Positions 605 to 38,989 of a stretch of 64,000 nucleotides of DNA are shown here, one piece after another. Source of the DNA: Crossaster papposus (Eukaryota > Echinodermata > Asteroidea > Velatida > Solasteridae); the NCBI GenBank assembly GCA_037893245.1, contig JBAIAA010000511.1, positions 62,001 through 126,000 on the forward strand, in the 5' to 3' direction. Position 1 is the stretch's first letter. Each line of letters opens with the position of its first letter. Made by a program: the position numbers and the translations under genes. Under the pieces are notes generated by a model. It was given only the letters and a program-made list of their open reading frames with translations, had not been told where the DNA came from and made no database searches.

Positions 605-751
605 CGAACAGGAATGCGTTGCTAACTGCCATCAGAAAACGCCCAATCAGCATTGTTATTAGTCTTGTTTCCAGCCTCGATGTCAACAAAGGACCTACAG
701 CAAACGCCAGCCCGCCTAGTGCGCTCAGTAATCCGGCCACTAGCAGGTTTG
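605..751 (-). CDS. MFSD1-like transporter, exon 4 of the visible part (TM3-TM4)
   Basis: On the minus strand a pyrimidine-rich acceptor (CTTTTTTCCTGCAG) precedes a 147-base exon that ends at a GTATTT donor. It begins with the last two bases of a codon and ends with the first base of one. The first is exactly what exon 3 at 18135-18190 requires. The peptide begins ANLLVAGLLSALGGLAFAVG (a membrane helix) and then has LITMLIGRFLMAVSNAFLFG (a second helix with the GRF typical of helix 4 in MFSD1-type carriers). MFSD1 is known as a lysosomal dipeptide exporter. At 31 an acceptor-like TTGCAG is followed by codons reading SGSFSLV and then a TGA, so the next exon is either tiny or lies outside the window. 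The family call rests on alignment by eye. Confidence 0.72.
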
Positions 752-1106
752 CTGCAGGAAAAAAGTTAGAAGAACAGAAAAGCTATGTTTAAATACCACC
801 CAAGTAGATCCTTGTCGTTTGATTGGAAGATCATAGGTCATGTGGTATTCATTAGTCAAACCATTGCATGGCCTACGTCATGACCGTACATTTTCGTGTC
901 ATCCCTTTTGATCTACGTATACTGCACGCTAGAGCGGAAATGCACGCGTTTTGTACGCAGCAGTACAAAACGCCCTCCGTATTACAATTTTGACAATTTG
1001 GTTTATTCTTATAGTTTTATCCTCCGATTAAAATGACAAAGATCTACCTGGGTATGTTATATAAAACAAAATGTTTTGCGTTCGTGCAATGGTGAGAAAT
1101 GATTCT
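752..1106. other. intronic DNA, nothing recognised
   Basis: This is the downstream end of the 17.4-kb intron between transporter exons 3 and 4. Apart from the acceptor tract next to 752, I see no open frame, repeat or motif of note. Confidence 0.6.
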
Positions 1107-1114
1107 CGTTGAAT

Positions 1115-1325
1115 TATACCCAGCACGATATGTGGCAGAGGGGTACCCCCCCCCCCCCCCCCCCCCCTCTTATCCCTACACTTCATACGCACTCAACACT
1201 ATTGTAACCTAACCCATCCCCCCTTGAAACCTAAAAGGAATTCCTGAGATTCCGGGAACACAATGGTCAACACAAAAGAGGGGGGGGGGGGGGGGTTTGC
1301 TCTGCCACATATCGTGCTTCATATG
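1115..1325. mobile_element. poly-C/poly-G MITE, copy 1 (8-bp target duplication)
   Basis: A 211-base palindromic element. The left end reads TATACCCAGCACGATATG and the right end is its imperfect inverse. It is flanked by an 8-base direct repeat CGTTGAAT (1107-1114 and 1326-1333). A run of 22 C (1146-1167) sits inside the left arm and a run of 16 G (1280-1295) inside the right arm. Other copies are at 28445-28639 and 29111-29247. An 8-base target duplication suggests the hAT superfamily; no transposase is present. Confidence 0.88.
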
Positions 1326-1333
1326 CGTTGAAT

Positions 1334-2418
1334 GGAACATTTCATCTTTCAACTCATGCACAAGTTCTCCCCATTGCACCAATAAACATTCATTATTTGT
1401 GTATTGAAGGTTTGTCATGTGTTAGGTACATGGTTGGGTTATCCAATTGGAACTATTATGCAATGTGCCCAATTTAATGCTGTGTCTATCAAACAATATA
1501 TATATTACAAATACTAGCTCTTGTTTTCTTTAATATACCGGTGACCTGCTATAACAAAATTCGAACAAAGTTGACAATTTCTGTTTTTTAGATTTTTCTT
1601 TTTTCAAATTCTCTAGGTTCTCAGTTTTAAATGATGTATCATTTACATATGTATCCCCACCCTTTCTTCCCTGGGGAAATAATTTATTTATAAAGCCCTG
1701 ACAACCTAATTATGAGATAAACAGCTTTGAAGTTCAGAAAAGCGTTTTATTTCTATACACAATTTTTTCACAAAATCGACCAAAAAACACACTTCTGGGT
1801 GATGGATTATGTTCAAATTTGGGAAGATTGTAGATTAATAGTTAGTGATTCAGAAAAACCCAAAACCTTAAAATAGTAAAATCCACCCTAAAATGATTTC
1901 ATGAGTACATTGTAATAAAACACATTGTGCGACTTTGTCAGGGTGTCGTTGGAACAGGTCACATTGCCGTATGTCATTATTAGCTTCCCCAGTTATACTA
2001 AAGCCGTGTTCGCACTGGATAAACATTTTGGGTTATTTGACCACTCTTCCCACCGCCCGCACTTGGATTTAATTGACGCGGGTAGAATTGCCGAGACGAT
2101 GGGTAAACTAACCGAGCTGGCTCCAAAACAATAAAGAGGGCGCCCTGCGTGACCTATGACCGCGACTTGACACGCGGATCGCGTATATATTTTTTACACC
2201 GCAGCGAAGGATTTTTTGTCCTAACACTGGCAATTCCACTCTTGGAAAGAGACTAACGAATACGAAGTCATGTACATGTACATACAGTGTACAGCGCGCG
2301 TGAAAATATAGGATCGTGCATGCGTGCACTGAGTTAATCGTTGTTTACCACTAGGAATTGGGCAAATGGGTTATCTGACGTTATCTTGATTTATACCACT
2401 GTTTATGTCCTCATTGTC
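1334..2418. other. intronic DNA, no gene seen
   Basis: AT-rich DNA inside the long transporter intron. It contains the dispersed repeat at 1935-2125 listed separately. No convincing exon was found; the open frame at 1925-2134 coincides with that repeat. Confidence 0.5.
1935..2125. repeat. dispersed repeat with AAAGCCGTGTTCGCACTGG
   Basis: The word AAAGCCGTGTTCGCACTGGA followed by GAGACGATGG(G)TAAA and CCGAG(C) blocks recurs in inverse orientation at about 22540-22712, and a related, shorter version lies at 17505-17610. The copies are diverged and terminal repeats are not clear. It is probably an old non-autonomous transposon. Confidence 0.5.
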
Positions 2419-2697
2419 TGCGTTCCAATCGCGTCGTGTTTAACGTGTTCACGAGTTCACGAGTCGTATAATGGCGTTCTAATGGCCTGGTAACTCGTGT
2501 TCACCAGTGATGAACTCGAGGTGGATTGTTTTTCTCCATGTTCATGACTTCATAAACGAATGAATACTCGCGCATGTACCGCACGACTAACTCGACTGTG
2601 CGCGTGCGTCTTGGTGAGTAGCGTTTTGAATGCAACCTACTCGTGAAAATTGAGAAATTCACGGTGAACACGATAAAAACGACGCGATTGAAACGCA
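2419..2697. mobile_element. palindromic MITE (TGCGTTCCAATCGCGTCG ends)
   Basis: The left end TGCGTTCCAATCGCGTCG is matched in inverse at the right end by TGCGTTTCAATCGCGTCG, and similarity continues inward through GTGTTCACG. The element is about 280 bases with no coding capacity. I could not define a target duplication or assign a superfamily. Confidence 0.75.
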
Positions 2698-3312
2698 GCA
2701 TAAGAGTTCACTCTGAAACGCCACTTAAATTGTATAGCGCCCTCTATAATATTGTAACGTTTGTGCCGGTTGGCCGATAGAGGGCACTTGAGCAATAAAT
2801 CCATGGTGAAATCGCCTGGTGCCACAGACATTAAAGGGTGCATGTGACTAAATCAGTGAAAATCAGTGCGCGCGAGCTCATTAATATTTTGTGATCCCTC
2901 CGGTAATTTTGAATAAGAGGTCCCTGGGGCCTATACATTGGACTGATTGTATAAATATTTGTGGAAATCAAGAATTGGTAACCCGTGGCTTCCAACTCGG
3001 GGGATTCCGTTTACAAAAAAGACCAATACGTGGGTCTATTTGGCATAGAGGCGGGGGGGATACATTGATACCTGGGCCCAGAGCTGGGCCACCAGTTTAG
3101 GGGTGGTTTGTGTGGAGGGAGTATAAAAAAAAAATTCATTCGGTCAACCCCCATAAATTTGAAAAGAAAATTGTTCTAGGAGTCTTAATCTTTGATTTCC
3201 AGTCAAAAAAATATGGCCACTCTACTCATGAGCGTCACCAGGCGGCGCTCTTTATTTCAATTTTTGTGTTGGTTACAATGAGCGCCGTATTTAGTGTAGT
3301 GGAACCATAAAC
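2698..3312. other. intronic DNA, no gene seen
   Basis: The stretch holds short open frames at 2891-3310 that lack splice signals and similarity to anything I know. A G-rich run lies near 3050. I see nothing else to support. Confidence 0.5.
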
Positions 3313-3610
3313 ACATAGACCGCCAGGTCCTATTAAAAACTACAGGATGATTTCGTGATTTCGCGGCGCCCGACTAAAATACCAACTATGGGCAAATTTA
3401 GCCCTCGGTATAGGGAATTTGTACACACCCGAACTGTTCCAGCCAAATAATTATATGAAAGCATTTATCGATTTAAAAGAAAATTACATAGGGTTATACC
3501 ATAGGCGATGTAGATTAAGCAAGTCCAGTGTCAATCTTGATACCCTTAAATAAAGACTTTTAGGCTCATTTTTGTGTTAAGCGCGTTGCCCGGTATGCGC
3601 ACAGAACGTA
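3313..3610 (+). repeat. 300-bp dispersed repeat, copy 1
   Basis: This stretch from CATAGACCGCCAGGTCC to GCGCACAGAACGTA recurs at 32622-32920 and 46822-47100. The copies match along almost their whole length, including TATACCATAGGC and CAAATAAAGACTTTTA-like blocks. The 46822 copy lacks about 27 bases near its 3' end. No inverted ends are visible, so the class is unknown; an AATAAAG word near the end could point to a retroposed transcript. Confidence 0.8.
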
Positions 3611-3811
3611 ATGAGCGCGCGGGGCGTTGCCCGTCGAACGAAAGATAGTGTACACGATTTTATGAACGCGCGTGCAAAGTGCGTTGCACGATAGGCGCGT
3701 AATTATACGCGCTTGGCTTTTTATAGCCACACGCGCATGCCGTGCAGCCTACGCGTCGTTTTGCCCATGCTTTGCAAATCACGGTTTTGTGCACACGACT
3801 GGCGGTCTATA

Positions 3812-5327
3812 TAGTCCGGGAGCCCAGCCAGGTTTAATCATAATTTTGAGTGCAAAAGGTTTGAAGCGTGGGATATGTAGGGGTGACTGGGACAACTGCA
3901 AAATGGGTTTTCTTAAGTTTGGCGAGTGGTGCGTTGGGAGGGGGGAGCCCCTGACAGACCCCCAAAAATTCGATTTAATCATAATCTTGAGTGCAAACAT
4001 AATTTCTTCATAGGTCGAAAGTTTATCGTGTACTGAATAGGATTTGTATACTTAAGAAAAATATAATTGGTGCTAAGTACATTTAAGAAGGTCTTTAATT
4101 AGTGCTAATTACACGTTTGATCATAATTTTGAGTGCAAGGATAAAACAAGTGTCAATGTGTAGCTGACACCTTGCTGGAGTAAAATCTGCCACATAAGAA
4201 AGTTTCAAGTGGTGCCATCCCTAATTAAGAAAGGGTCAAAGGTCATCACAAGTCATTAAACACTAATAATTATAACGTTGAGTGCAACTTGCATTTATGT
4301 GTATATCAACAGATTATCATAGACCGATCACTGATCACAAGCTTAAGAGCATGATATATAGTGCAAAGTCTAATTAAGAAGGTCTGTAATTAGTGCTAAT
4401 TACACGTTTAATGTGTAGCTGACACCATGCTGGAGCCAAATCCGCCACTTATGAAAGTTTCAAGTGGTGCCATCCCTAATTAAGAAGGGGACAAAGGTCT
4501 TTAAAACTAAAAGTCAATAAACACCGATAATTATAATGTTGTATGCAACTTGCATTTTTATGTGGATCAACCGTTTATTATGGACCAATCACTGATTACA
4601 CGGCGCAATGTCCGATCGAAATGTCTGATTAATAAATGATTAGAATGATAATTGAAATCATAAAACGAGCGTCAAAGTGTACTTTACCAAACGCAGGAAT
4701 AAAACCCACCGCATAAGCAATATCACAAACAGTCATGAAGTTGATTGCAATTGCCTGTACCCTCTCAAACACGAATGGGTGTAAAATAATTAGGGAATAT
4801 GAGATCACCGATGCTTACAATTATAGGAACATAACTTGTTAGTAGTTTTGAGCTCAAACAAGGTTTGCATTAAATAAGACAACAGTCAATATTGAGAACT
4901 TTATTGTAATGATATCATTAACATTGGCTGATGAGCTGCTTTGGAGTAAGTTACGTGGTGCTTAGTACAGTGGCTCGATAGCAAAATTCCTAATCTTATG
5001 CAGCAGCGCGATCGAGTACACAAAATTGCAAAGCGCACAGGCTCACAAATCCATTCATACAAAGACCTGCGGCACAATGTTAATGCAATCCGCAGTAAGA
5101 AATCAAAAGCAATTCACCTATGATGTAGAAAACTCTGCAGGAGGTACTCCCTAATGAGCAGACAACTGAACTGTACCAAATTCGATTACTTCCCCCAAAT
5201 GGTGAAATATTGACGATTCCGCCGACATTGCTGATACATTAAATAAACACTTTTTAACAATCGGCAAGCGTACTGCTGGTAATTACCCTTTGCGTAAACT
5301 TGAAATAGATGACAATACTACCTTTAA
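3812..5327 (+). repeat. left arm of the foldback element
   Basis: This is the inverse of 6231-7809. Pairing can be followed from the terminal TAGTCCGGG through the block near 4600 (CGGCGCAATGTCCGATCG) to CTTGAAATAGATGACAATAC near 5320. The last 350 bases are LINE coding sequence in plus orientation, diverged from the matching part of the right arm. Confidence 0.85.
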
Positions 5328-5339
5328 GTCAACATTGGA

Positions 5340-6660
5340 TATTTTCTGCCTTGTACCAATATGCATACATTTAGTTTTGGTGGCGTTTAATGCTATAGCT
5401 TGTTTCTTACGTACCAGTTGTGAAAACTATAACAGCTGTGCTTAAGCTGCTTTCTATTATATTAATGTTGGAGGAGCTACACGTTAATGTGGAGTCATCA
5501 GCTTACATAAATAAGTTGCAGTTTGGGGATATACAAAATGGAAGATCACTAGTATAAACAATGAATAAAAGTGGACCTAGTATCGACCCCTGCGGAAAAC
5601 CAGTGTTTACGGACAGGAAATTTGATATTTACAGACTGACTACGATCACTTAGGTATGACTTTAATAAACCAATTGATTACAGAAAATAACAGGTTCAGC
5701 TTCTCTAGTGTCTCTAGTAAGATGCCATGATTAACACAATCAAATACTTTACTGAGATCTATAAACACACTGCCTGTGCCTGTAATTTCTCTATTCTCCA
5801 TGGCCTCAAAACACTTGTTTATTAAGTCGTGCATGGTGCTTTCAGTTGAGTGCAGGGGTCTAAATTCTGATTGGCAACTAGGAATCAGAATGTTTTCATC
5901 AAGGTATATACCGATGTGTGCACCTATCTTTCAAAAATCTTAGAGATGATTGGCAGTATAGAAATAGGCCGATAGTTACCAGTACTACATTTATATCCTC
6001 CCTTGTTAATTGGTGTTACTAATACATGTTTCCAATTTTTAGTGTATCGCTCACATCTTATAGACATGTTAAAAATACAAGTTGAATATTTAATGATATA
6101 AGGTGAAGCAATTTTGATCATTTTAACACTAATTTCATCCATAGATAGATGATATTTGCTTTTGAACAAACTCTTCTGTAACATTAGGTACGGTACTATG
6201 CATTCTTTATGAAGAGAATCATTGATAAAGGCGTCAGTATTGACATTTATTTCAAGTTCACGCAAAAAGTAATTACTAGCAGTACGCTTGCCGATTGTTA
6301 AAAAGTGTTTATTTAATGTATCAGCAATGTCGGCGGAATCGTCAATATTTCACCCTTTGGGGAAGTAATCGAATTTGGTACAGTTCAGTTGTCTGCTCAT
6401 TAGGAAGTACCTCCTGCAGAGTTTTCCACATCATAGGTGAATTGCTTTTGATTTCTTCTATGGCGGATGTGCGAATGTTCACTCTTTTTTACTGCGGATT
6501 GCATTAGTTAACATTGTGCCGCAGGTGAATCCCAATGGATTTGTGAGCCTGTGCGCTTTGCAATTTTGTGTACGCGATCATGCTGCTGCATAAGTTTAGG
6601 AATTTCGCTATCGAGCCACTATACTAAGCACAATGTAACGTAACTTACTCCAAAGCAGCT
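5340..6660 (-). mobile_element. LINE reverse transcriptase fragment inside the foldback element
   Basis: Minus-strand frames show, in order, an endonuclease/RT linker (near 6560-6640, HDRVHKIAKRTGSQIHW), an RT start with NYRPISILPIISKIFER (about 5924-5990), VFIDLSKVFDCVNHGILLE (about 5690-5780), and near 5500-5600 SILGPLLFIVY followed by an ADD catalytic motif. This order is that of the CR1/L2/Jockey group of non-LTR elements. The frame is interrupted by stops and frameshifts between these blocks, and both ends are missing, so it is dead. Its 5' part is duplicated in inverse in the left arm. Confidence 0.82.
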
Positions 6661-7809
6661 CATCAGCCAATGTTAATGATATCATTACAATAAAGTTCTC
6701 AATATTGACTGTTGTCTACTTTAATGCAAATCTTGTTTAAGCTCAAAAACTACTAAAAGGTTATGTTCCTATTATTATAAGCTCCGGTGATCTCATATTC
6801 CCTAATTTTAACGTATTCATATTAAATATTAAATTTTACACCCATTCGTGTTTGAGGGGGTACAGGCAATTGCAATCAACTTAATGACTGTTTGTGATAT
6901 TTCTTATGTGGTGGGTTTTATTCCTGTGTTTGGTAAAGTACATGTACACGTTGACGCTCATTTTTTTAATTCAATTATCATTTATTAATTATCATTTATT
7001 AATCAGACATTTTGATCGGACATTGCGCCGTGTAATCAGTGATTGGTCCATAATAAACGGTTGATCCACATAGAAATGCAAGTTGCACACAACATTATAA
7101 TTATCGGTGTTTATTGACTTTTAGTTTTAATGACCTTTGACCCCTTCTTAATTAGGGATGGCACCACTTGAAATTGTCTTAAGTGGCGGATTTGGCTCCA
7201 GCAAGGTGTCAGCTACACATTAAACGTGTAATTAGCACTAATTACAGACCTTCTTAATTAGACTTTGCACTATATATCATGTTCTTAAGCTTGTGATCAG
7301 TGATCGGTCTATGATAATCTGTTGATATACACATAAATGCAAGTTGCACTCAACGTTATAATTATTAGTGTTTAATGATTTGTGATGACCTTTGACCCTT
7401 TCTTAATTAGGGATGGCACCACTTGAAACTTTCTTAAGTGGCAGATTTTACTCCAGCAAGGTGTCAGCTACACATTGACACTTGTTTTATCCTTGCACTC
7501 AAAATTATGATCAAACGTGTAATTAGCACTAATTAAAGACCTTCTTAAATGTACTTAGCACCAATTATAAGTATACAAATCCTATTCAGTACACGATAAA
7601 CTTTCGACCTATGAAGAAATTATGTTTGCACTCAAGATTATGATTAAATCGAATTTTTGGGGGTCTGTCAGGGGCTCCCCCTCCCAACGCACCACTCGCC
7701 AAACTTAAGAAAACCCATTTTGCAGTTGTCCCAGTCACCCCTACATATCCCACGCTTCAAACCTTTTGCACTCAAAATTATGATTAAACCTGGCTGGGCT
7801 CCCGGACTA
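6231..7809 (-). repeat. right arm of the foldback element
   Basis: This is the inverse partner of 3812-5327. It carries the same subterminal words in reverse, and its innermost 400 bases are LINE sequence continuous with the centre of the element. The LINE frame is better kept here than in the left arm. Confidence 0.85.
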
Positions 7810-7918
7810 ATAGGTTTATATGTCTGTGCCTGGTGCTCCCGGCCCTGACGGTGCGCTCGGGCAACCCCGTACTTGTGCGCGCATACGCCGAACCGGTTCT
7901 GACCGGTTCCAGTGCCGC

Positions 7919-8880
7919 GTGATATCGGTGATAGCTGGTTGCTATATGTTAACCAGACATGAAGTTGGAGTTCAGAATACACAGTTGTTAGTCAGAATAC
8001 TGTCTGAGTAAGTGTCGTCTTTTCAAGCCTCAAACATAAATAGAACCACGTAACATGGTGTCAGAAGTGGACTGATATGTGCAAAAAATGTCAGAGATTC
8101 GATTGAGTATACTGTGAATGTTGGAGTAGCCAGCCTTCAACTGCAAAAAAGAGAGATTTTTCGGAGGTAAGAGTAGACTAAGAGACTGAACTTCCGAATT
8201 TTCAGTGACTGTGTGCATGCATACGAACAGTACATTTTACACAGTCAGTGAATAGCGACACACAACTGTGTTTACATGATGGCGGCCTATCAAATACCAC
8301 CACCAGAGGCCATGGACTGCACAGGAGGTGATCTTGCAAATAGTTGGACCTTCTTCAGAGAGAGTTTCGAGGACTTTCGCAAAGCAGTAGAACTTGATAA
8401 AAAGGATGAGTCTATCCAAGTGGCCACTCTGAAAAGTGTGATGGGAAAAGATTGCAAGAACATATTAAAGCAACTTCAGCTCACAGATGATGAAATGAAA
8501 AGTCATAAAACCGTTCTCGACAAGCTACAGGAACATTTTGCACCATCAGGGAATGTACTGCATGAGAGATACCTGTTTCCATACTGCCAATCAACAGTCA
8601 AATGAAACTGTAGACCAGTATGTCAAGCGCCTGAGACAGTTGGCTGAGAAATGCAAATTCACTCAGCTAGAAACAGAGATGATCCGAGACAGATTGGTTT
8701 TTGGAACTAGCGAAGCAACACGAGCACATCTCTTCGGGCAGAAAGAATGTGATCTGAAGCAAGCAATAGAGTCCCTCCGAAACAGTGAGCGGGCTGAGGA
8801 ACTGCTCAAAAAGATGGCCGTGTCACAGACAGAAACTGTACACTCTATGAAGAAACTTAAAAAGTAGAAAGGCAAAGGCC
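7919..8880 (+). mobile_element. fossil Ty3/gypsy fragment: leader and gag only
   Basis: A primer-binding-like site (TGGTGTCAGAAGTGG at 8054) follows what may be the remains of an LTR. Downstream lies a gag region (about 8276-8867) with the long, charged, helix-rich gag pattern of this family (for example ETVDQYVKRLRQLAEKCKF). There is no nucleocapsid knuckle, protease or polymerase, so this is a broken remnant with about one break inside gag and the rest lost. The same primer site occurs in the nearly whole element at 9858-14701, so the two are related but distinct. Confidence 0.78.
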
Positions 8881-9857
8881 AATTTAACAGGCCAACAAAC
8901 TCACTACCGGAGTAGTCCCACTACTAGTGTTCCCCCGGTATACTGCGATATACAGGGTCACACATCGGCACACGCTAAAATTGGTTGAAAACTTGCTTTT
9001 TCGTGCGCACTCTGTGCGAGGAATTGTGGAGTCGTAATTATACTGGGTGTATTCTCTAATTTCTCAGCTATTACATGTACTATCTGAAATTGCGCTTAGG
9101 TCTTAGCCAGCCAGCCGTGTAGGCCGTGTTTTACACGGCCACATTTGAAATAATGCGGCTGATTTTTAATTACCACGGCCCAAGATTCAATACGCCGGCC
9201 GTGCACTTTTTGTTATGTTAAAACGCTTGTTATATTTCTGCTGTCGGTGTATTTTGTTTATTTACTTACAATTGCTATTTTCGAAAGCAAAACTCCGCTG
9301 TTTTTGCCCCAATAATATGCCCCGATAAATCAACAAGGCTTTGCGTGCTGGTACGGTGATATGAATGAGTGCCAGAAAACCATGTGCTCGCCCGCCCCAT
9401 GCAACAATACATGCATCATTGTTGGAATGGTTCCCGTCGCACGCTTCAATAGACAAAGTTAAGGACTGGAACCAGTCCATGGCCGACACGCATGTATTTT
9501 TCCGTTACACGAACAAGAACATACAAACTGGTCGAATCGAATTTGACATAGTAAGACGTAAAAATGCCCGGCAAACAAACGTCGATGAAGAAAGTCATTT
9601 CCTGCAGGTTAATTCTCAGATCATGTTCACCCTTTTCTGTGTTTGTATTTTCTGTTTTAATGTATTTATTTCGAGGTAGTAACGCTCGTCCTTGAGCGAT
9701 ACAGCGCAGCGTGTTTTTGCAAAATGTTTTACCGCAGCATGTTTCCTGTGGTGCGTTGTTGCACACGCTTGTTGTGGTCAGATCATGAAGGTATATCGGC
9801 GTCCATCGTGTAAATAGGCCTACTACATTCTCCATTTAAAAAAAAGGTTATCAACCT
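8881..9857. other. intronic DNA between two LTR-element fossils
   Basis: No supported gene. A 104-codon open frame on the plus strand (9365-9679) has no recognisable domain; a GT follows CTGCAG at 9608, so a chance exon-like look is possible. A CGGCC-rich patch with inverted words lies at 9100-9200. Confidence 0.45.
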
Positions 9858-10008
9858 TGTTGTGATCTTACACGACACGGATGGCAAGGATTACTTTAGA
9901 TTTATTGTGTCTCGAAAACGGTACATGTCTGGTTAGTCCGGTAGCCATTTTCTAACTCCCAGTTCCCACCAATAGAGGGGGCTATTAAAGTTCAGTGTAA
10001 TATCAACA
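9858..10008 (-). repeat. 3' LTR of the Ty3/gypsy element
   Basis: A 151-base long terminal repeat running TGTTG...CAACA. It is identical to the copy at 14550-14701 apart from one base in a C run. It holds an AATAAA word in transcript orientation, suitable for poly(A) addition. Confidence 0.95.
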
Positions 10009-13000
10009 CATCTTCCTTTCTTAATAAAAGAAGTTTATATAGATGAAGTTCTGTTATGACTGAAAAGTTCCAATGTTCTGCATTCTAGTTGATACACGTA
10101 TCACGATCAAGGTAGTGTTCTGACGACGTGATACAAGTTCAATGTTCATTCTTGAAGTTGGGTGTTTATCAAAGCAGCTGAAATTTTGCAATCTTATATT
10201 TACTGAAGAAAACTTTCAATTAAGACAAATCTAATTTCTAAAACTTTCACATGAAAAACTAGAAGAATAACGCTGTGAAACATTAACGCTAAATCTACAC
10301 GTGTGTAACTGTTCTAAGTTTAACTATAAGTATAGTTGGGCAAGTCCCGCGATTTACAGATCAAGCCTTATCGGTGGCTTAACAACTCGTCCACTCCTGG
10401 TCGTAGTAGCTGGTGGTTGCGTGATGTCCTTGTTGTTGTCGTTGCTGGGTTCTACTGTTGTTGTGGTTGGTTCCAAATCCAGTTCTTTGGATGATGGCTC
10501 GATGAAGTCGCGCTGTTGTGGCAGTTGTGGGGCAACTCTCAGGTGGCGCCTATTGCGACGTCTCGTACCATTGCCCGTCTCTACTTGGTAAGAATGATTT
10601 GGCAATGCGGCTGCAACACACCGCCCTGAGACCACACGTTCTTGGTCGTGTCCAGCAACCTGACTGTATCTCCTATCTGTAGTTGAGGTAGGTCACGGGA
10701 TCCAGATTGTTTGTTGTGTTGTACCTTTTGTTTTTCCTTTTGTTGATCCTTTCTATGTTTAAAGGCTTGGCTGTCGAGATGTTTGAAGTCGAGCAGGCTA
10801 TCCACCATAGGCAGATTGGATCGAATGCGTCGGTTGTACAACAGTTCTGCTGGAGATTTTCCGCACTCTAATGGTGTACTACGGTAGATCTGCAAAGCCC
10901 TGTAGATATCTTGGCCACTGTTAGCTGTTTTGCGGATCATGTTCTTGACGATTTTCACGGCATTTTCCACCAATCCATTTGATTGAGGATAGTGGGGACT
11001 CGATGTGGTGTGTGTGAAGTCCCAATCTGCTGAAAAGCGTTTGAATTCAGCACTGGCAAACTGGGGTCCATTATCGCTGAATATTTCACATGGAGTTCCT
11101 TGTCGCGAAAACACAGACTTTAAGCTTTTGATCACTGTGCCGCTGGTTGTGTTAGTCAATGTGCATACTTCTACAAATTGTGAGAACGTAGTCTACAATG
11201 ACTATGTAGTTCTTACTGTTCAATGTGAACAAATCTGCTCCTACCTTTTTCCATGCTCGGTTGGGAGTAGGGTGCGGCTGGAGTTTCTCTGCCGTCTGTT
11301 TTGTCTGGTATTTTTGACATTCGTTGCAGTTTTTTACCATGTCTGTTACATCTTGGTTGATGCGTGGCCAGTACATGACTTCTCTGGCTCTTCGCTTACA
11401 TTTCTCAATGCCAAGGTGACCTTCGTGGATTTTCTCAAGCATGTTTCGGCGCATTGATGTTGGGATTATGATTTTATTGCCCTTGAACAACATGCCGTCT
11501 GCTTGAGACAGTTCATCACGTGCATTCCAGTAGTCACTAACGGCAACTGGACAATTGCTCTTCACGTCGGGCCAACCTTCATTGATTACTGTGCTCAGTG
11601 TCTGTAGAGTTTCATCGCGTTGTGTTTCTACGGCGATTTCTTTCTTCCTGTTGGAGGACACTGGCATGCTTGTCAATATTGTATTGACGTAGGCTTGGAT
11701 ATCATCCTCTCTGGAGCTGTCGTTCTCTGCATGAGGATCTACGGCCCTTGAAAGTGTGTCAGCGGTATACATGAACTTGCCCGGTGTGTAAGACACTTTC
11801 AAGTCGTAGCGTTGTACTCTGATAAGCATGCGTTGTACTCTTAATGGACAATCACACAGTGGTTTAGTGAACAACGGAATTAGTGGTTTATGATCGGTTT
11901 CCACTTCTACGATTTGCCCATAGATGTACTGGTGAAAGCGTTCACATGCATAGGTTATGGCCAACAGTTCCTTTTCAATTTGGGCGTATCTTGTCTCGGC
12001 CGCTGTCATTGACCTGGATGCGTACGCCACTGGTGCCCATGCATTCTGATACTGTTGTAGTAGAACTGCACCAAGCCCATTCTTTGATGCATCAGCCGAT
12101 AGCTTGATGGGCTTCTTTGGGTCATAGAATTTTAGCACTGGCGCTGTTGTCAGTATGACTTTTAGTTCTTGCCAGGCCTTTTCTTGTGCTTCAAGCCAAA
12201 ACCATTGATTTTTCTGGTCTAGCAAGCTGCGTAGTGGAGCTGACTTGGTAGATAGATTTGGGATGAATTTGCTCATGTAGTTGATCATCCCCATGAATCT
12301 CTGTACATCATTCTTATTTTGGGGTTTCTGCATGTTGAGGATAGCGGATACCTTTTTGGGATCAGGCAAGACTCCTTGGTCGCTGATGACATCTCCAATG
12401 AAGGTCAATTTTCTCACCCCAAACTCGCACTTTTCTCGGTTTAGTTTGAGATTATTGCGCTCTGCTATCTCTAGTACTTGTCTGAGATTCCGGTCATGCT
12501 CTTCACGAGTTGAACCCCAAACAATGATATCATCCATCATCGTGTTGACCCCTGGCACATCAGCAAAGAGATCATGGATGATTTTGTGATATACCTCTGG
12601 TGCACTGCAAATGCCAAAGGGAAGACGAAGGAATCGATACCTCCCAAACGGTGTAATGAACGTGCAAAGTTCTGAGCTGGCATCGTCTAGTTGTATTTGC
12701 CAAAATCCGCTTGAGGCATCCAGTTTAATGAAGAATTTTGCTCCAGCAAAGTGTGCTGTGATTTCAGCACGAGATGGCAGCTTGTAGTGTGCTCGCTTGA
12801 TTGCCCGGTTTAGATCTCGTGGATCTAGACACACTCGGAGCTTGCCGTTTTTCTTGTCAACGACACAGAGTGACGACACCCAATCTGTTGGTTGGTCTAT
12901 CTTTGTGATCACCTGCATTTGCTCCATTTTGTCCAGCTCCTCCTTTAGTTTGTCTTGGAGTGGAAAAGGGACTTCCCTACATGCATGCTGGACGGGTATA

Positions 13001-14549
13001 GCATCTTCACGAATTGTGATGTGGTGTGTTCCTGGTAGGCATCCTAACCCAGTGAACACTTCCTCGAAATCTTCTATTTCTAGGGGTGTTGTAGCGATGT
13101 TTAGTACTTTCTTTATGAGGTTCATCTTTTCACAAGCTTTCAACCCTAACAATGGCTGATGGTCTCCTGGTGTGACTAGAAATGCAATGAAGTAGTTCTT
13201 ACTTTTGTGTTGCACCTTGGTCATACATCTGCCGGTGATGGGTATGTCTACTCCCGTATATCCTGTAGCCTTCACTTTTGCTGCGTGAAGTTTTGGCTGT
13301 GGTTTCATTTGTTGAAACAGCTTTTCGGGAAGGAGATTGGCTTGAGCCCCTGTATCTAGCTTGTAGTTGACTCTTATTCCATGTGTATGGAGTTGGAGTT
13401 TCCATTCGTCGTTTCCTGTATCTCTATCAATCACATCCACGAAGAATTCTTCCATATCTTCTGGAGTTTCAGTGACATCATGCACATGTTTCTTTCTGTA
13501 AGGAGAGCTTTGTGCAGCCTTGCACACTTTTGCAAAGTGGTTTGTTTTGCCACATTTTGTGCACGTTTTTCCATAAGCAGGGCATGCACCATACTCATGT
13601 GTTTGGCCACATCGATAACATGTTTTGGTACTCTTACTCGAGGTATGTTGAGACTTTTTGTAGAAACTTCCTTTGCCATTCGATCTTCGATCTTTTGCTC
13701 TTACCGCATCTACCGGTTTGCCGGATGGCGCTAGCGCCTTGGCTTGTAGCTTTGTGGTTTCTGCTGCTCTGCATAGCTGCATGACTTTTTCCAGAGTGAG
13801 GTTATCTCCCCTTAAGAGTCTCTCTCTTAAACCGTCCACTGGAATTCCACAAATGATGCGATCTCTGATTAGCGAATCCTTAAGCTCGCCAAATTCACAT
13901 GACTTACTGCGCGTACGTAGTTCCGTTGCGTATTGGTCAATGGTTTCTCCTGGTTGCTGATCTCTGGTAAAGAACCTGTGGCGTTCAAATGTGATATTGC
14001 GCTTCGGCATGCAGTACTCCTCAAACTTCTGTAGTACAACATCTAGTTTCATATTATCATCTTGTGGTTCAAAGATAAATGTGTTGTAGATGTCGAGGGC
14101 TGCTTCCCCTATGATATATAGGAGAGTTGATGTCTGCGTCTTATCATCTTTATCCGATAAGCCTGAAGCTGTATTATACAATGTATATCGCTGCTTAAAT
14201 CGCTTCCAATTCTCAGCCAAGTTGCCAGTCAGATCCAATGCCGGAGGTTGTGATAGATGAGGTAGCTGTGCCATGTTAGTGTTCAAGATATTGTCCTTGT
14301 ACTGATGAGTATTATCGATCTCTGTCAGGTACTTACCCCTATCATTAAGCTAACTATTAGCTAGACAACAGGAGGAGCAATAGCCCGTCCCCCAACTAAG
14401 AGATCAGTTCGACAACTAACGTTACAACGTTATTTATAATGTCTTTATATATCGGCAATTCTTGAGTTTTTATGGCAGATTTTATGCCTCACCTCCATCC
14501 ATATTCAGCTATTCTTTCTTGACAAGAGAAATCTTCACTTCTGACACCA

Positions 14550-14701
14550 TGTTGTGATCTTACACGACACGGATGGCAAGGATTACTTTAGATTTATTGT
14601 GTCTCGAAAACGGTACATGTCTGGTTAGTCCGGTAGCCATTTTCTAACTCCCCAGTTCCCACCAATAGAGGGGGCTATTAAAGTTCAGTGTAATATCAAC
14701 A
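14550..14701 (-). repeat. 5' LTR of the Ty3/gypsy element
   Basis: A 152-base long terminal repeat, partner of 9858-10008. In element orientation it is followed directly by the primer-binding site. Near identity of the two LTRs indicates recent insertion. Confidence 0.95.
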
Positions 14702-16195
14702 CAGTACACCTTAAACCTTTATCATGCTTTTAAAATAACTCGGGCAGTTTTGTTGTCACTGGTGAGGGGCAGTTTTGATAGCTTTCGTGACGGATGCAAA
14801 TTAAATCTTCCCGCAAGATCAGCGATTACGACAAGCAGTGTGGGCTGTAGTGCCGTGCCGTGCCGTGCTAGGGAAATGTTCCCGCACACGCGCTTTCGTT
14901 TAGTTGTACAATGCAGTTGCGTAACCTCGGTGGAATAAGTTAAGCTACTTTTCACCGCGCAGTGCCGGCGTAAATTTCTCGTCTGAACGCAAGCATATTT
15001 TGGATTAAAAAATTCTTATCTACTGGCCTCGATGTACAAATAAAAAGGTGTTAAAAAACCCTGAGCCTGTTTATTTACGAAACCCTAGTCATAAAAAAAA
15101 TTATATATATTCCTAAGGTTAATGATGAAATTGTCTTTGTAATATAGAAAAAAAAAAAAATGGTACTTAAAGACTTATTTGTCTGAACTCCTAAACAATT
15201 TCCAACCGATTTCAGGAGTAAATAATAATACAATATATTCTTGGTTTTTTCCGGTATCTAATAAAATCGACAAACACCTGACCATTGAATTACGAGACTA
15301 GCAAAATAAATTCCAGGTTTATTGAATAACATTTATTTCTAGTTTCATTGTTGAAATGACTGAAATAAAGACAAAGTAACTTGCTTCCTTTCTTCCTATC
15401 GGTGTTCTTATTTGTTTACAGGTTTATGGCCAATTGACCGTTATCCCATTTTACACGTAGTGTGAGTCAGTGTGCGCTGTTTTTCAATCCAAACTTCCAA
15501 TACCGGTATCCATAATATACTCCTCTGGTCAAAATTTATTTCAAGTTATCATTCCAGCTAAAAATGGTAAATATTAGATTTAAAAAGAAAAGTATAAAAA
15601 TCAGGATTCATATTGCCACAACATTAACAAAAAATAGGTAGAAATTGGCCTCAGATTACGCCAGAGCTAGAGCACCTAAGAAACCAACAAATTTCAGGGC
15701 CCTTAAGCGGGCCCTGAAACCCCGGCCGCAGGGACTCCCCGCTACGCGCTCGTGATGTGCGCTTCGCGCACATGCTCCGCAGTTACATGTACTCAAATTG
15801 TTACACACCCAACTTTTTTTTTGAAACACCCAATTCACAAAATCCTGCCTAAGACCCATTCTTACCTCCAAAATTACGAGAAATTTGGGCATCTTTTTTT
15901 TCAGTCGAACTGAGTGCAACGCACAGTTCAGGCTGGATTATAATCCAATGACCCGTGACGTCATTTGAGTGTGCAAAGCCCACCTCGAGGGCGCTTCACA
16001 AGTTGAGATGCGACGGCTGTTTCGTGTGCAATGGATTTGCCAAGTATATTCACTCGTATTTTATGGGCATGGAACGCAATTGTGGGGATGATTATAAATC
16101 ACAGCGACTGAATGGGGAATTGTCAAAGCAACTCTGTTCATGATAACATTATACCTTGTTTGGAGGTTAAATGCACGAAACTTTACTTTATGGCG
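14702..16195. other. intronic DNA; one strong hairpin
   Basis: AT-rich DNA with no supported exon. At 15692-15719 a perfect 11-base inverted pair (TTTCAGGGCCC / GGGCCCTGAAA) surrounds a 6-base loop, followed by a GC-rich tract with CGCGCTCGTGATGTGCGC words. This looks like the end of an old repeat. Confidence 0.5.
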
Positions 16196-16335
16196 TAAGT
16201 GGACTTACGCCATAACTTATTGCGTAAGTTGCGCAATAACTTTAGGATGGATTTCATAAAAGTTACGCATTATCGGGATATGTCGTAACTCACCGAGTTA
16301 CGCCATAAGATGTGGCGTAACTGGCTATGTGTCGT
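16196..16335. repeat. cluster of short palindromes with GGCGTAA / TTACGCC words
   Basis: Several inverted pairs (GGCGTAAGTGGACTTACGCC, GCGTAAGTTGCGCAATAAC, CGAGTTACGCCATAAG) lie within 140 bases. The region could fold into several hairpins. It is likely a decayed palindromic transposon. Confidence 0.6.
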
Positions 16336-16879
16336 AAATATGGCGTTCAACGTGAACACCGAAGAGCGCTTCGCCGTGAAAGATTATTCCGTGACCGAAT
16401 AAATCCCCTATAGATCATCTCGAAGACGACGAAATCAGAGGGCGGTATCGCTTTTCTCGGAAGGGTATTTTCTATATTGTTGAAGATTTACGACATGTTT
16501 TGGAGCGTCCTACAAGGATAGTTTCTCATTTTCCGTTAACGTTAGTAAATGTCGAGTGCAACAAAACCACCCTCATTTAAATATCACTTTCTCAAATCAT
16601 AACAAATCGCCGGCGCACTTTTTTGTCTCAAAAGTTAAACAGCGCCCTCATGCACCCCTAAAAGATAAATGTAGGCCTATATTGGTCGAACAAAATACAT
16701 AATGTTCTCGGGGATAAAAAGGACAATGTGGTTTGTAAGGAGCGCGTTCTCGAAATGTATTGTTAGATATTAAAGCAAAAGCAACCCACCTGTTAAATGT
16801 AATCTTGGAACCAAGACTAATTTCAATGTCAAGTATAAAGGGGCATTCAAAATATCAATGTTTTAAAGTTTGACTTTTA
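16336..16879. other. intronic DNA, nothing recognised
   Basis: No open frame, repeat ends or splice-flanked coding block could be supported here. Confidence 0.5.
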
Positions 16880-17111
16880 ACCAGTTCGCGCTGGATGACG
16901 TATACAAATGCAACGTTTTTCCCAGATTCAAAACGGATGACGCATAAACACGCCACGAGCAAGGCCGGAAATGTTCGTCAGCAACGAGCAAGGCCAGAAA
17001 TGTCTGTCAGCAACGAGCAAGGCCGGAAATGCGTGGGTGTGCTTTCCGGTATCATCGGGCTGAACCCGCCTCGGATCGAGTTTTGTTAAAAATAATTCCG
17101 CGCGAACTGGT
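16880..17111. mobile_element. MITE with ACCAGTTCGCGC ends, copy 1
   Basis: The left end ACCAGTTCGCGC is matched in inverse by GCGCGAACTGGT at the right end. Inside are three tandem copies of a unit of about 27 bases (GCAACGAGCAAGGCCGG followed by AAATGTCTGTCA). Copies 2 and 3 of the family are at 17877-18122 and 51313-51533 and have two such units. No coding capacity. Confidence 0.85.
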
Positions 17112-17876
17112 GGAGACTATGGAACGTCAAAAGCTAGTACATGTAGAACAAGAATTTTAAGTTTTCAGAAACTGCGACAGATAGTAAAATCCAAATTTCT
17201 GCTACCATAAAATCCATTTTTTTAAAACCCGTTTGGAATTTCTGAAAACCTAAAATTCTACTAGCTCTGAGAAAATCGGAAAATACGGTTGTCAACTTTT
17301 GTTGCTCCATAGGAGACAATTCACCTACATTTTAGAGTCAAAAGTTTGTAAACGTTGATTACTTTTATTTTTGGCCCCAATAAATAGAGAAAATTATGAC
17401 AGGGAATAAAGAACATTTGGAAATTAGAAGTTAAACTGACCTGGTCAATCTTCCTGGGCACCTTTGGCTCAGTTAAACTACCCACGCGGCGTGGGTAAGT
17501 AACCTGTGAGGAAAGTTACCCAGGCTGTTCGCACTTGACTTGAAATGGGTAAGTTACCCATTGGCTCGGTTAGTTTGCCCAAATTAAGTCCAGTGCGGAC
17601 AGGGCTTAACACTTCACACACATTCATTATAGCTAAGCTTTAGTTTCGTCCCCGATTATCACCGAGCTCGATTTAAATTTAAACAAGTTACCAATTAATT
17701 TTATTTAAGGTGCAGTACAATTCAAATGTGCAGTATTCTGTTTCGAGCTGAATTTTAAAAGGATGTGAGAGCTTTATTTCTAGTTAATTATAAGTAAAAT
17801 TGGAATGGTTAATTACGCCGAAAGAAGAAACAGACAATAGGTGCAAAAAGTACACACGTGTCTACTACAGACGTTA
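17112..17876. other. intronic DNA between two copies of one MITE
   Basis: No supported exon. A short segment near 17490-17600 with TGGGTAAGTTACCCA and AAGTCCAGTGCGGAC words is related to the dispersed repeat at 1935-2125. Confidence 0.45.
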
Positions 17877-18122
17877 ACCAGTTCGCGCCAGAGGACGTAT
17901 ATACACGCAACGTTTTGTCCGAAATTCACGCAGATTCAAGCGGATGACGCATAAACACGTCACGGGCAAGGCCGGAAATGTCTGCCAGCAGCGAGCAAGG
18001 CCGAAAATGCGTGGGTGTGCTTCCCGATACCATCGGCCTGAACCCGCCTCGGATCGAGTTTCGTTAACAATAATCCCGCGCCTCGGCTTAGGTGATGTTA
18101 AATAATCCTGACGCGAACTGGT
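17877..18122. mobile_element. MITE with ACCAGTTCGCGC ends, copy 2
   Basis: Same family as 16880-17111: ends ACCAGTTCGCGC and its inverse, internal AAGGCCGGAAATG units. It stops only 12 bases downstream of the splice donor of transporter exon 3, so it sits at the very edge of the intron. Confidence 0.85.
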
Positions 18123-18134
18123 TTTAAGGCTCAC

Positions 18135-18190
18135 CTGTTCGACCATATCTATCGATTAAGATTCCCGCCACAACAGCCGTAACGGCTTCC
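18135..18190 (-). CDS. MFSD1-like transporter, exon 3 of the visible part (TM2 end and motif A loop)
   Basis: A 56-base exon between an acceptor (TTCTCATCGTTGCAG) and a donor (GTGAGCC). Joined in phase to the exon at 21311-21435 and to that at 605-751, it encodes EAVTAVVAGILIDRYGRT. GILIDRYGRT is the conserved loop between helices 2 and 3 of major-facilitator carriers (pattern G-x3-D-R-x-G-R). It starts after two bases of a glycine codon and ends with the first base of an alanine codon, matching both neighbours. The exon is too small to be noticed by open-frame length; splice sites, phase and motif together make it convincing. The downstream intron is 17,383 bases and full of transposons. Confidence 0.85.
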
Positions 18191-20759: not shown

Positions 20760-20878
20760 TTAAATGTATACATCCTGGAAATACCCAATTGGGTTACAAA
20801 ATACGTTTTTAACGAAATTATGTTAATCGGAAAGGGCATTTAAAAGTAGGATATAAGCATCCACACATACACGCGAAC

Positions 20879-21130
20879 AGCGCGAGTCGGTAAAAGCGGC
20901 TCAGGAAAACGTACTGTACATCCGGGCCCCTAGTACAGTGCGAGGTCATGCTACACAAGGCGCACGCGATCTTTGTATTGTTTACGTGATCACATTCGCA
21001 TGTGGTTCTGCAAAACGAAAAAGAACAGAAAAGAGCGTGCAGTAGTAAATTGTACTACTAGTACTCGTGTCGACGATGGCGTCAATGATCGATCGGACAT
21101 AATTAAACCGCGCGCGCGAGTATTGGGTAC
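20879..21130 (+). repeat. direct duplication, left copy
   Basis: The block from GCGCGAGTCGGTAAAAGCGG to a CGCGCGCGAG patch recurs in the same orientation at 22233-22512, about 1.35 kb away, with small insertions and deletions. A shared core is GCATGTGGTTCTGCAAAACG. Transporter exon 2 and two MITEs lie between the copies. Ends do not look like LTRs (no TG...CA pair), so a local duplication is favoured. Confidence 0.8.
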
Positions 21131-21310
21131 ACCGTTTGATGTCTCATTCTACAGTGGAAAGGTGTATCTTTCCAACCATACCTATGTTATCAATTGGTTA
21201 CACTACGTGTGGCATTCCGTTAAATTCTGCTTGCATTTTTTTTTAGACACACTGTACTTGTACATTGTATATTGTATATGAAAAAATGGGTAGCCTTATT
21301 ATATTCTCAC

Positions 21311-21435
21311 CCAATACTGTAGATAGCGTAAAGTTGATTGTACTGGAACGGTGTAAAGCCAAGGCCATCAGTGAGGTAGCCTCCATCATCAAACAGCTCA
21401 ACGTCAGAGCCGTTGGAGTATTGAGGTTGGGGGTT
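21311..21435 (-). CDS. MFSD1-like transporter, exon 2 of the visible part (loop 1 and start of TM2)
   Basis: A 125-base exon between an acceptor (GTGTTTTTATTAAACAG) and a donor (GTGAGAAT). It opens in phase 0, as exon 1 demands, and ends two bases into a glycine codon, as exon 3 demands. The peptide runs from NPQPQYSNG through a polar lumen-like loop to GLGFTPFQYNQLYAIYSIG. The LYxxYS block at the start of helix 2 is characteristic of MFSD1-type carriers (human: LLYAWYSWPN). The exon lies between two direct repeats (20879-21130, 22233-22512), and a MITE starts 36 bases upstream of its acceptor. Confidence 0.8.
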
Positions 21436-21470
21436 CTGTTTAATAAAAACACCATGTACATGTACATCAA

Positions 21471-21640
21471 GGCCGAGTTCGGGCGGCCTGTTCTTGACAC
21501 GCGAATTCTGTTCTCGCGCTCGAACGGCGGGAACGCGACCCGTGAACATTGCACTTGGAACAAGAACACACACCACCTATCCATCAGGGTTTTGCAAGAA
21601 CAAGTTACGCGTTTCAAGAACAGACCGCCCGAACTCGGCC
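21471..21640. mobile_element. MITE with GGCCGAGTTCGGGCGG ends
   Basis: The left end GGCCGAGTTCGGGCGGCC is matched in inverse at the right end, followed inward on both sides by TGTTCTTG and CGCG words. 170 bases with no coding capacity; the long open frames across it arise from its base composition. No target duplication was clear. Confidence 0.8.
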
Positions 21641-21734
21641 CATAACATCAGTCCGGGAGCTACCCTTAATGGTTTTCCTTATATGAGAGGGCTCTTACAG
21701 GATTCCTGCACATTGCCTCTCTTTTCTGTGTGTA

Positions 21735-22184
21735 CAGGGTGGTCCAAAAAAAAATATACCCAACTTTGGAGGCCATTTGTATTGATGTTCCAGATACATG
21801 AAATTATATCATTTGTTGAACTAACTGAAATGAACAAAACCAGAAGCCTATCTATTAAAAAGTATTATTTATCCATTTTAGTGTAAATAAAAGAAGCTCT
21901 CGCAAAAACATTTGTCAAAGGACTATCGCGTCATTACATTATTGTGTCATATCATATTCAAACATGTTGATGCATTGACAGCTCCCGTGGAAAAGCCATT
22001 TTTACACATACTCGCTAAAAATAGGAATATCTCCCAAAATATTAATGTAATATCTTCCCTATTTTCACCAATAATGCTCAACGATATATGCTTTAATAAT
22101 ATGCAAACCAAATTACTAAAATATTTTATCATCTAGGAGAAAATGGCCTCCAAAGTTGGGTATAGTTTTTTTTGGACCACCCTG
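21735..22184 (+). mobile_element. Tc1/mariner-type MITE (CAGGGTGGTCC), copy 1
   Basis: Inverted ends of at least 40 bases begin CAGGGTGGTCCAAAAAAAA and continue CCCAACTTTGGAGGCCAT. It is flanked by TA on both sides (21733-21734, 22185-22186), the target of Tc1/mariner elements. The 450-base body has no transposase. Copy 2 lies in inverse orientation at 26412-26857 and is very similar. Confidence 0.92.
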
Positions 22185-22232
22185 TATAATACTTTATTTA
22201 AGGACAATAAAGCTAGTTTGATATTGGATAAC

Positions 22233-22512
22233 AGCGCGAGTCGGTAAAAGCGGCTCAGGAAAACGTACATCCGGCCCCATAGTGCAAGGCCATACACCCC
22301 AAGGCGCATGCGATGTTTGCATTGTTTACGTGCCCGCACGCTGATGCGTGCACATCACATCGTGATCACATTCGCATGTGGTTCTGCAAAACGAAAAAGA
22401 ACAGAAAAGAGCATGGAGTAATAAATTGTACTACTAGTAGTGGTACTTGTGTCGACGATGGCGTCAATGATCGATCGGACAAAAAAAGCGCGCGCGAGAA
22501 TTAGTACACCGG
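22233..22512 (+). repeat. direct duplication, right copy
   Basis: Partner of 20879-21130. It carries an extra palindromic piece (GTGCCCGCACGCTGATGCGTG region) absent from the left copy and lacks a few short segments. Confidence 0.8.
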
Positions 22513-22897
22513 GGTCAATGCGTTAAGGTCACACAAAGCGCCCTCATTAGTCATTATAATAACAGCTCGGCTACTTCTCCCGCGGTCTCGGTACTTTTCC
22601 CGTGTCGAAAGTCCAAGTGCGAACAGTGGTAACATTTGACCATTTTTTTATTTTACCATCGTCTCAGTAAAACCTTTCGAAAACAAAGTCCAGTGCGAAC
22701 ACGGCTTTAGATGGGTTACATAATTATATACCCCACATGGTATACTTTGTGTTCTACGGTGCAACGCAGCTGACAGCAGCATTCTGGACGGATTAGCGAT
22801 TAGCGGGCCGCGGCTATAGACGAATCCAACAGAGGCATTTGTTTTGCATTCGTCATTGGCGACTGTTTCTCTCTAGGGGCCACGCGACGCGAATTTT
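22513..22897. other. intronic DNA with one dispersed-repeat copy
   Basis: 22540-22712 is an inverse copy of the repeat at 1935-2125. The rest shows nothing recognisable. Confidence 0.5.
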
Positions 22898-23002
22898 GGC
22901 CGTTTTCCAAACCGCAGCTTCGTCTCCGTTTGGCTTCGTTTGTGCAGTTTGGAAATGGTGATGAAGCCCAGTTGGATCCTAAGCTGGGATTTAGAAAACG
23001 GT
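22898..23002. repeat. 105-bp palindromic element (GGCCGTTTTC ends), copy 1
   Basis: GGCCGTTTTCCAAACCGCAGC at the left pairs with GCTGGGATTTAGAAAACGG at the right. A second copy is at 31574-31665, nested in another element. It is small enough to be a minimal MITE. Confidence 0.7.
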
Positions 23003-23564
23003 AATGCGATGGTCCTCACAATACGATGGTCCTCACCGGCAATACCGGTCCTCATAATGTCCTTGTATCCTAGGCGCGCGCATTGATGTGTGTGTGTGTT
23101 ATTGTATGTGTGTAAACACGTTGGACACAAGAACTTTGTGGCAAACGATGAGTTAGTCTTGCATACGCACTGTGGACCTCCGAACAATATAGGTCCACAC
23201 GATGCGGGAAGAGGTTACGGTTTGTGGTCTTGCCCAGGTCCACAATCCGTTTTTCAGTTTCCGAAAAAGAGCGCTAGAGGAAAAACGGGTTAGGGTTATA
23301 TATAGAAAAGATAGAAGGAACAGCTGAGAGACCCAGAATCAAAATTGAGGGTAAATTTGTTTTGGGGAAGCGAGAAAAATGAGTATTTGGTCAACGTTTT
23401 TTAACTACACGAAGACAAAGGAATGTCCACAGAACGTATGTAAGGTAAAGCTAAGTGGGTCCACGATTGACAGAAAGTCCACGATTCCAAATCGTGTACA
23501 AATCCTATGGAGGTCTTCCGTAAAAAAAGTTAGTACAACCAAAAGAGGGATAACGGGAGGACAA

Positions 23565-23905
23565 TAGGGGGTCCATCGAGGAAGGTGGTGCGAAATACGG
23601 TACCCTCTGGAGACGTGAACACAATGGGGACAATGGGAGTGAAAAGGTCTCCAACGAGTAATTTCTATAGATGAATAGGTCTTCATTAGGAATTTCACGA
23701 ATTAGATTTTTAGATTAGACTTAAATTACTCAAAAACTAGGGTTAGAATGTGAGTTAGGGTTAGTGTTTGGGTTAGGGTATGGGTATATTGGTCGAAATT
23801 TCAACCCAGAAAAGTAGTTTTGTGGTTAAAGTGGGAGCATTTTGAAAAACGTGCTCGACTTTCTAACCATTTTGTACACGAGAACAAAGCCATGTCTCCA
23901 CAGTG
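23565..23905 (+). repeat. dispersed repeat containing GGGTTAGGG words, copy 1
   Basis: This block, with ACTAGGGTTAG, GAGTTAGGGTTAGTGTTTGG and a CGTGCTCGACTTT...TTGTACACGAGAAC core, recurs at 33100-33400, 47270-47580 and 57895-58235. The TTAGGG-like words are spaced and imperfect, part of the repeat rather than a true telomere tract. Confidence 0.75.
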
Positions 23906-23947
23906 ATACAAAAACGCGAATACGTGTTTACACATACATGTGCGTTT

Positions 23948-24135
23948 GTTTATGGTGTAAATGGAGGACACATACCTGGCGACACGAAGGTGAATTGGGG
24001 TTAGGGTTAGAATCGAGGACGACCTCGATTGAGATTCGTGTACAAAACCAATGAGAGCCGTCGGAAAAAGTTAGAGTACAAACAAAGGAAATTTTCGAGA
24101 GGAACAAAGGAAACTCCTCGATTTACACCATAAAC
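23948..24135. mobile_element. MITE with GTTTATGGTGTAAAT ends, copy 1
   Basis: GTTTATGGTGTAAATGGAGGA at the left is matched in inverse by TCCTCGATTTACACCATAAAC at the right. A second inverted copy of the family is at 57665-57840. The inside holds GAATCGAGGACGACCTCGATT, itself a palindrome. It ends 56 bases from the donor of transporter exon 1. Confidence 0.85.
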
Positions 24136-24191
24136 AACGTGCATGATTGTTTATATGTATACATGTACACTGTAGACCTTATAGTACTTAC

Positions 24192-24304
24192 AGCTTGCAA
24201 AACTCCTTGTAGTGGGCTGGGCAAATCATGAACGAAGTGGATTCCGAACAAACCTACACTGTTGAGGAGAAATATCGCCCAACGAAATAACTGTCCGTCT
24301 TTAC
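24192..24304 (-). CDS. MFSD1-like transporter, exon 1 of the visible part (TM1)
   Basis: A 113-base exon with an acceptor (CTTTCAATGTATGCAG) and a consensus donor (GTAAGT). It starts with two bases that finish a codon and ends in phase 0. The peptide is KDGQLFRWAIFLLNSVGLFG followed by IHFVHDLPSPLQGVLQA. This matches the first helix of MFSD1-type carriers, which ends in a D-x-P-x-x-L-Q block (human: YFCYDNPAALQ). If the acceptor were not used, an ATG at 24314 would add three residues and could be the start. No earlier exon is certain: an ATG in good context at 25129 (MASYSKENLH) has a GT at 25084 but the phase does not fit this exon directly. Confidence 0.8.
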
Positions 24305-38938: not shown

Positions 38939-38989
38939 GTCCAAAGGCAAATTCGCTTTAATTCGAATGCACGAACATTTATTTGGCTG

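Follow-up and report, generated by a model that had tools for sequence, protein, structure and literature searches.

A divergent MFSD1-family carrier gene of Crossaster papposus with a third intron that is long in one of two copies

A twelve-exon gene on the minus strand

The stretch of DNA analysed here, called the window, comprises 64,000 nucleotides (nt) of Crossaster papposus DNA, positions 62001-126000 of contig JBAIAA010000511.1 (C511; C511 coordinate = window position + 62000), in a genome assembly of 1.02 Gb in 1,841 contigs. Its left part holds the beginning of a gene for a major facilitator superfamily (MFS) carrier. We consider it highly probable that this is a working 12-exon paralogue in the MFSD1 family, an MFS carrier of something other than dipeptides, and that its intron 3 has become long through mobile elements in one of two copies, likely one of two haplotypes.

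An earlier note on this DNA had proposed four minus-strand blocks with acceptor and donor sites, all mutually in phase, and this was borne out. Each block (113, 125, 56, and 147 nt) lies between an AG and a GT, and spliced together in phase they encode a peptide of 146 residues that contains the named motifs LYAIYS, GILIDRYGRT, and GRF. The remaining exons, expected to the left of position 1, were found there: eight further exons (5-12) stay in phase down to a stop codon. The gene model has 12 exons and 473 residues and extends 10.2 kb past the left window edge (Table 1). The four blocks are hardly a product of chance, since eight more in-phase exons follow them, a copy with the same 12 exons lies on a second contig, C1108, and a related gene on contig C755 has matching introns. 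They are thus confirmed as exons 1-4 of a real spliced carrier gene.

Because exon 1 starts inside a codon at 24304, another coding exon probably precedes it. An in-frame ATG is present at 24311 but was rejected as the start, because the C755 counterpart of this exon begins in that phase too, and behind it come a stop and no in-frame ATG. In that counterpart the donor has the same position and phase, and the acceptor has the same phase and lies four residues further in.

Table 1. Exons of the carrier gene, its third intron, and the mobile elements within it, in window coordinates; negative positions lie left of the window on C511. TM, transmembrane helix; LTR, long terminal repeat.
Feature	Position	Strand	Description
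Exon 1 of model	24192-24304	-	TM1; AG/GT, in phase; 113/113 nt identical to C1108:238856-238968
Exon 2	21311-21435	-	TM1-TM2 loop and start of TM2, LYAIYS; 5 differences in 125 nt from C1108:232555-232679
Exon 3	18135-18190	-	TM2 and motif-A loop GILIDRYGRT; 56/56 nt identical to C1108:224922-224977
Intron 3	752-18134	-	17,383 nt on C511, 2,363 nt on C1108
Block without counterpart in C1108	2002-17605		15,604 nt, largely mobile elements; CTAA left, TTAA right
Foldback element	3807-7813		inverted arms 3807-5319 and 6236-7813, 91% over 1,594 columns
Gag-like fragment of another retrotransposon	8252-8867	+	weak; Retrotrans_gag E = 0.0077 for 8499-8867, below cut-off
LTR retrotransposon	9854-14703	-	LTRs of ~157 nt, direct repeats 9854-10010 and 14546-14703, 98.7% alike
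Exon 4	605-751	-	TM3 to TM4, GRF; 4 differences in 147 nt from C1108:222412-222558
Exon 5	39 to -43 (1-39 in window)	-	supplies the rest of the codon interrupted by intron 4
Exon 6	-1201 to -1359	-	
Exon 7	-2020 to -2153	-	
Exon 8	-3460 to -3574	-	
Exon 9	-5283 to -5420	-	
Exon 10	-5954 to -6099	-	
Exon 11	-9207 to -9321	-	
Exon 12	-10059 to -10151	-	final exon, closes at the stop codon

Relation to MFSD1 and the substrate site

MFSD1 is a dipeptide uniporter with an N-terminal lysosomal sorting motif. The 473-residue product of the window gene matches the Pfam profile MFS_1 over residues 57-384, a span covering both six-helix halves (E = 4.2e-29; 102 bits against a cut-off of 33.4), and Sugar_tr slightly above its own cut-off as well; a search of NCBIfam with the product gave five matches, each far under its cut-off. 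When the full model was compared with PDB sequences by phmmer (E up to 1), two matches only were returned, mouse MFSD1 (8r8q; 1.7e-11, query residues 68-400) and GLUT3 (0.022). Searched alone, the 146-residue peptide also matched carriers, but all E-values were weak and OCT and GLUT chains ranked over MFSD1 (0.0011 versus 0.18); the full model was therefore needed. The window gene is predicted to encode a 12-helix MFS carrier, of which the four blocks form the start.

The earlier assignment to MFSD1-type carriers stands for the broad family and not for MFSD1 itself, whose orthologue lies on contig C150 and again on C1826. Both were found with human MFSD1 as the query, which also gave weak hits to a third locus, on C755 (E = 0.027), and to an MFS sequence on C584 (E = 0.11). 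Besides the C584 match, no other family member appeared among the 16, 24, and 18 candidates scored for the human, window-gene, and C755 protein queries, respectively. The models of the C150 and C755 genes begin after the N-terminal part, and that of C755 stops before the C-terminal end. The window gene is 33.3% identical to the C755 gene over 427 columns, 24.8% to the C150 orthologue over 404, and 24.0% to mouse MFSD1 over 405. The C755 gene shares 34.0% with the C150 orthologue over 379 columns and 32.4% with mouse MFSD1 over 386, and the C150 orthologue shares 56.9% with mouse MFSD1 over 408. The gene closest to MFSD1 is therefore the one on C150 and not the window gene.

Kinship was judged by intron positions rather than by a tree. 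All 10 comparable introns of the window and C755 genes agree in position and phase (the C755 model ends at the 11th), whereas the C150 orthologue has only 2 of 11 introns at window-gene positions. From these identities and common introns, the window gene groups with the C755 gene as an MFSD1-like sister line. The C755 gene differs from it in lying nearer to MFSD1, which is the sole PDB match of its protein at E up to 1 (1.7e-46). On these comparisons, the window gene belongs to the MFSD1 family as a divergent paralogue and not as the MFSD1 orthologue. A literature search on invertebrate MFSD1 paralogues returned no paper on such paralogues by title.

PMC11252000 places the dipeptide site of MFSD1 at Y56, Y59, E150, Q176, R181, Y276, F280, Y365, W373, Q393, Q396, N397, and L400, with the N- and C-termini of the dipeptide clamped by E150 and R181; it describes D60 as critical and N157 and F173 together with W373 as the gate. 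These 16 residues were compared. Two more residues in a legend of the same paper were left uncounted, Y369 (gate), where position 369 holds an alanine, and "R118" (coordination), which we read as a slip for R181. All 16 are kept in the C150 orthologue and 10, including R181, in the C755 gene, compared with three (D60, F173, and Y365) in the window gene. Among the 13 replaced in the window gene are E150 and R181, whose positions both align to alanine, although single columns are uncertain at 24% identity. The alignment of helices 4 and 5 is anchored by GRF and by aligned WF and FG, the WF of exon 5 falling on the WF of mouse MFSD1. The window protein resembles MFSD1 in its MFS profile, its collinear alignment, and its motif-A loop, and differs from it in a longer TM1-TM2 loop.

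The link to lysosomal dipeptide transport drawn in the earlier note was not upheld by these replacements, and the dipeptide function of MFSD1 should not be transferred to the window gene. With both terminus-clamping residues replaced, its product would not be expected to carry free dipeptides in the manner of MFSD1. We infer that it functions as a carrier of another substrate, for which transport would most likely proceed by the ordinary alternating access (rocker switch) of MFS proteins. GLMP, the partner of MFSD1, is encoded on contig C449 (PF15065, four matches, each above the cut-off), which does not imply that the paralogue binds it. More generally, a best match alone does not justify passing the dipeptide function to MFSD1-like genes, and three family members in one genome that keep 16, 10, and 3 of the 16 residues offer a graded series for the residues that determine substrate choice.

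Two copies and the length of intron 3

All 12 exons are present at equal length on C1108 (210768-238968), where AG precedes 12 of 12 exons and GT follows all 11 that precede introns. The two coding sequences differ at 27 nucleotides and nine residues (NG86; nonsynonymous divergence, dN, 0.0084; synonymous divergence, dS, 0.054; dN/dS ~0.16), and the 473 codons are free of stops and frameshifts in both copies. Collinearity links C511:30.7-109.9 kb to C1108:172.0-260.7 kb, except for a duplicated stretch in the window.

The 17-kb, transposon-filled intron described in the earlier note is real, but its length is not fixed, since intron 3 of the collinear copy measures 2.4 kb. C1108:224265-224396 aligns to window 1869-2001, and C1108 resumes from 224393 at window 17606, so that the block between has no counterpart at the matching site, where TTAA occurs once. 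The 17-kb length is thus a property of one copy and not a fixed feature of the gene. Other introns differ in the opposite direction, C1108 having 6,176 nt against 2,756 in intron 1, 7,577 against 3,120 in intron 2, and 2,420 against 533 in intron 9. Intron 1 of C1108 has a stretch of ~3.4 kb (234359-237757) and intron 2 one of ~4.5 kb (227912-232425) without counterpart in the window copy. Neither copy is therefore ancestral throughout, and intron length is in flux in both.

The block contains the foldback element and the LTR element that the earlier note had located inside the host transcription unit. At the centre of the foldback, 5646-5930 on the minus strand holds a reverse-transcriptase fragment (RVT_1, E = 9.9e-5; 22.6 bits, under the cut-off of 29.6); no family was matched in the domain search of 5924-6349, nor in that of 8252-8605 in the gag-like fragment. 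Between the paired LTRs of the other element lie reverse transcriptase, RNase H, and integrase in Ty3/Gypsy order (RVT_1 1.9e-23, RT_RNaseH_2 2e-32, Integrase_H2C2 1.4e-16, rve 9.7e-11), with a weak gag zinc knuckle. From this domain order and its motifs we take it to be of the Gypsy type. "Near-whole", as it had been called, is a fair description, the integrase being divided over two reading frames; no clean target duplication was seen when sought by eye. Two further repeats lie within the block. A piece of 165-171 nt at 2830-3000 recurs at 96-99% identity and is arrayed at a spacing of 643 nt on contigs that include C1459, C315, and C532. The other, at 16174-17434, consists of two blocks of ~630 nt each and is a high-copy repeat whose numerous copies are 81-98% identical.

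At the left border, a query of 1870-2330 gave 41 other genomic matches in the list, 35 of which start at 1992-2002 and six at 2045. As the repeat family starts at this border, the left end of the block is the end of a high-copy repeat. The piece at 1997-2181 (~185 nt) occurs genome-wide in high copy, usually at 80-91% identity. The border has flanks CTAA and TTAA, a short inverted similarity, and a left edge common to many copies; it may belong to a PIF/Harbinger-like DNA transposon, a class with a 3-bp TWA target duplication, terminal inverted repeats, and a transposase. Mobile elements, among them the foldback, the Gypsy-type element, and other repeats, would have entered a TTAA/TAA site and built up the 15.6-kb block, either as one outer transposon with nested insertions or as a row of separate insertions; the copy on C1108, most likely the alternative haplotype, does not carry it. 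Splicing is presumed to remove the block, since exons and splice sites are intact in both copies.

Weighing the readings

The C1108 copy is probably the other haplotype of the same locus. If the two contigs were instead two loci produced by a recent segmental duplication, one would understand why L32e, GLMP, and the C755 gene were each found on one contig only, which means that the assembly is not doubled everywhere, and why collinearity was traced over ~80 kb of C511 rather than the whole contig. However, the same tandem repeat of 1.6-1.8 kb, identically oriented, terminates both contigs (C511:266579-275000; C1108:392109-397068; the C1108 units 89-92% alike to the C511 query), and the MFSD1 orthologue likewise lies on two contigs, one large and the other of 26 kb, as leftover haplotigs would, though that pair is more diverged (80-95% alike by piece). 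We regard a duplication as unlikely. Some DNA transposons excise precisely at TTAA sites, and the block could in principle be ancestral and have been lost from C1108 by excision or deletion. Against this, a single TTAA in C1108 opposite CTAA and TTAA flanks in the window is what a never-entered site would look like, and the close likeness of the LTR pair marks at least that element as young, which makes loss quite improbable. The large load of mobile DNA and the divergent substrate site might also suggest a pseudogene or a silenced allele in which the exons of the 17-kb copy are intact and unexpressed; open codons, intact AG/GT sites in both copies, and the low dN/dS leave this little credit. 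That the gene is the MFSD1 of this animal, a lysosomal dipeptide uniporter, is hardly credible: MFSD1 is its best PDB match and the two have a C-terminal GG.LN-type motif in common, but a much closer orthologue exists on C150 and C1826, with every site and gate residue kept and few introns shared with the window gene.

Several observations weigh against a working gene whose intron was lengthened by insertion in one of two haplotypes. Scanning for ATG exons with a phase-1 end yielded 11 candidates for the first coding exon, none convincing, and a second scan with other filters gave zero. The terminal tandem repeat also occurs on C715, C181, C195, C507, C89, C160, and C1087, and the single-contig genes named above count on the same side. 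The probe C511:129000-134000, dominated by a high-copy element, had no C1108 match among the best 30 of 2,291 candidates. At the block itself, the left flank is CTAA instead of TTAA, and the inverted likeness of the ends extends over few bases (15 of 17 matching, as judged by eye). Local alignment of the two end regions reaches a best score of 54, compared with at most 49 in 200 shuffles. As most left-border matches end near 2181, the block may begin on its left with a short repeat rather than with the terminus of one outer transposon.

We still prefer insertion into one copy of a working gene. Its component kinds are all known already; what the pair of copies shows is how an intron grew. Transposon-expanded introns and heterozygous structural variants of other animal genomes likewise have one of two intron copies lengthened by mobile elements, and they are no different in kind; here the block-free site is present in the same assembly. 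The pair thus documents intron growth clearly, the block-free site being available for comparison, and is useful for studies of allele-specific splicing of very long introns. It is also conceivable, and we put it forward tentatively, that the window gene represents a distinct MFSD1-derived subfamily with its own gene structure, which lost the dipeptide charge clamp and took on a new substrate, and that the 15.6-kb intronic block of mobile DNA in one allele could alter expression in heterozygotes.

Two repeats outside the gene were recorded. Window 32300-41968 and 46496-56357, ~14-15 kb apart, have long pieces in common in the same order (97.9% over 3.1 kb, 96.7% over 1.7 kb, and 88.5% over 1.5 kb), and 32300-33757 and 46305-47930 both match C1108:259016-260668, C1108 having been read up to 262000. 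To the right of the window, C511:129700-133100 is a ~3.4-kb element with many copies at 97-98% identity, and it has probably been active recently.

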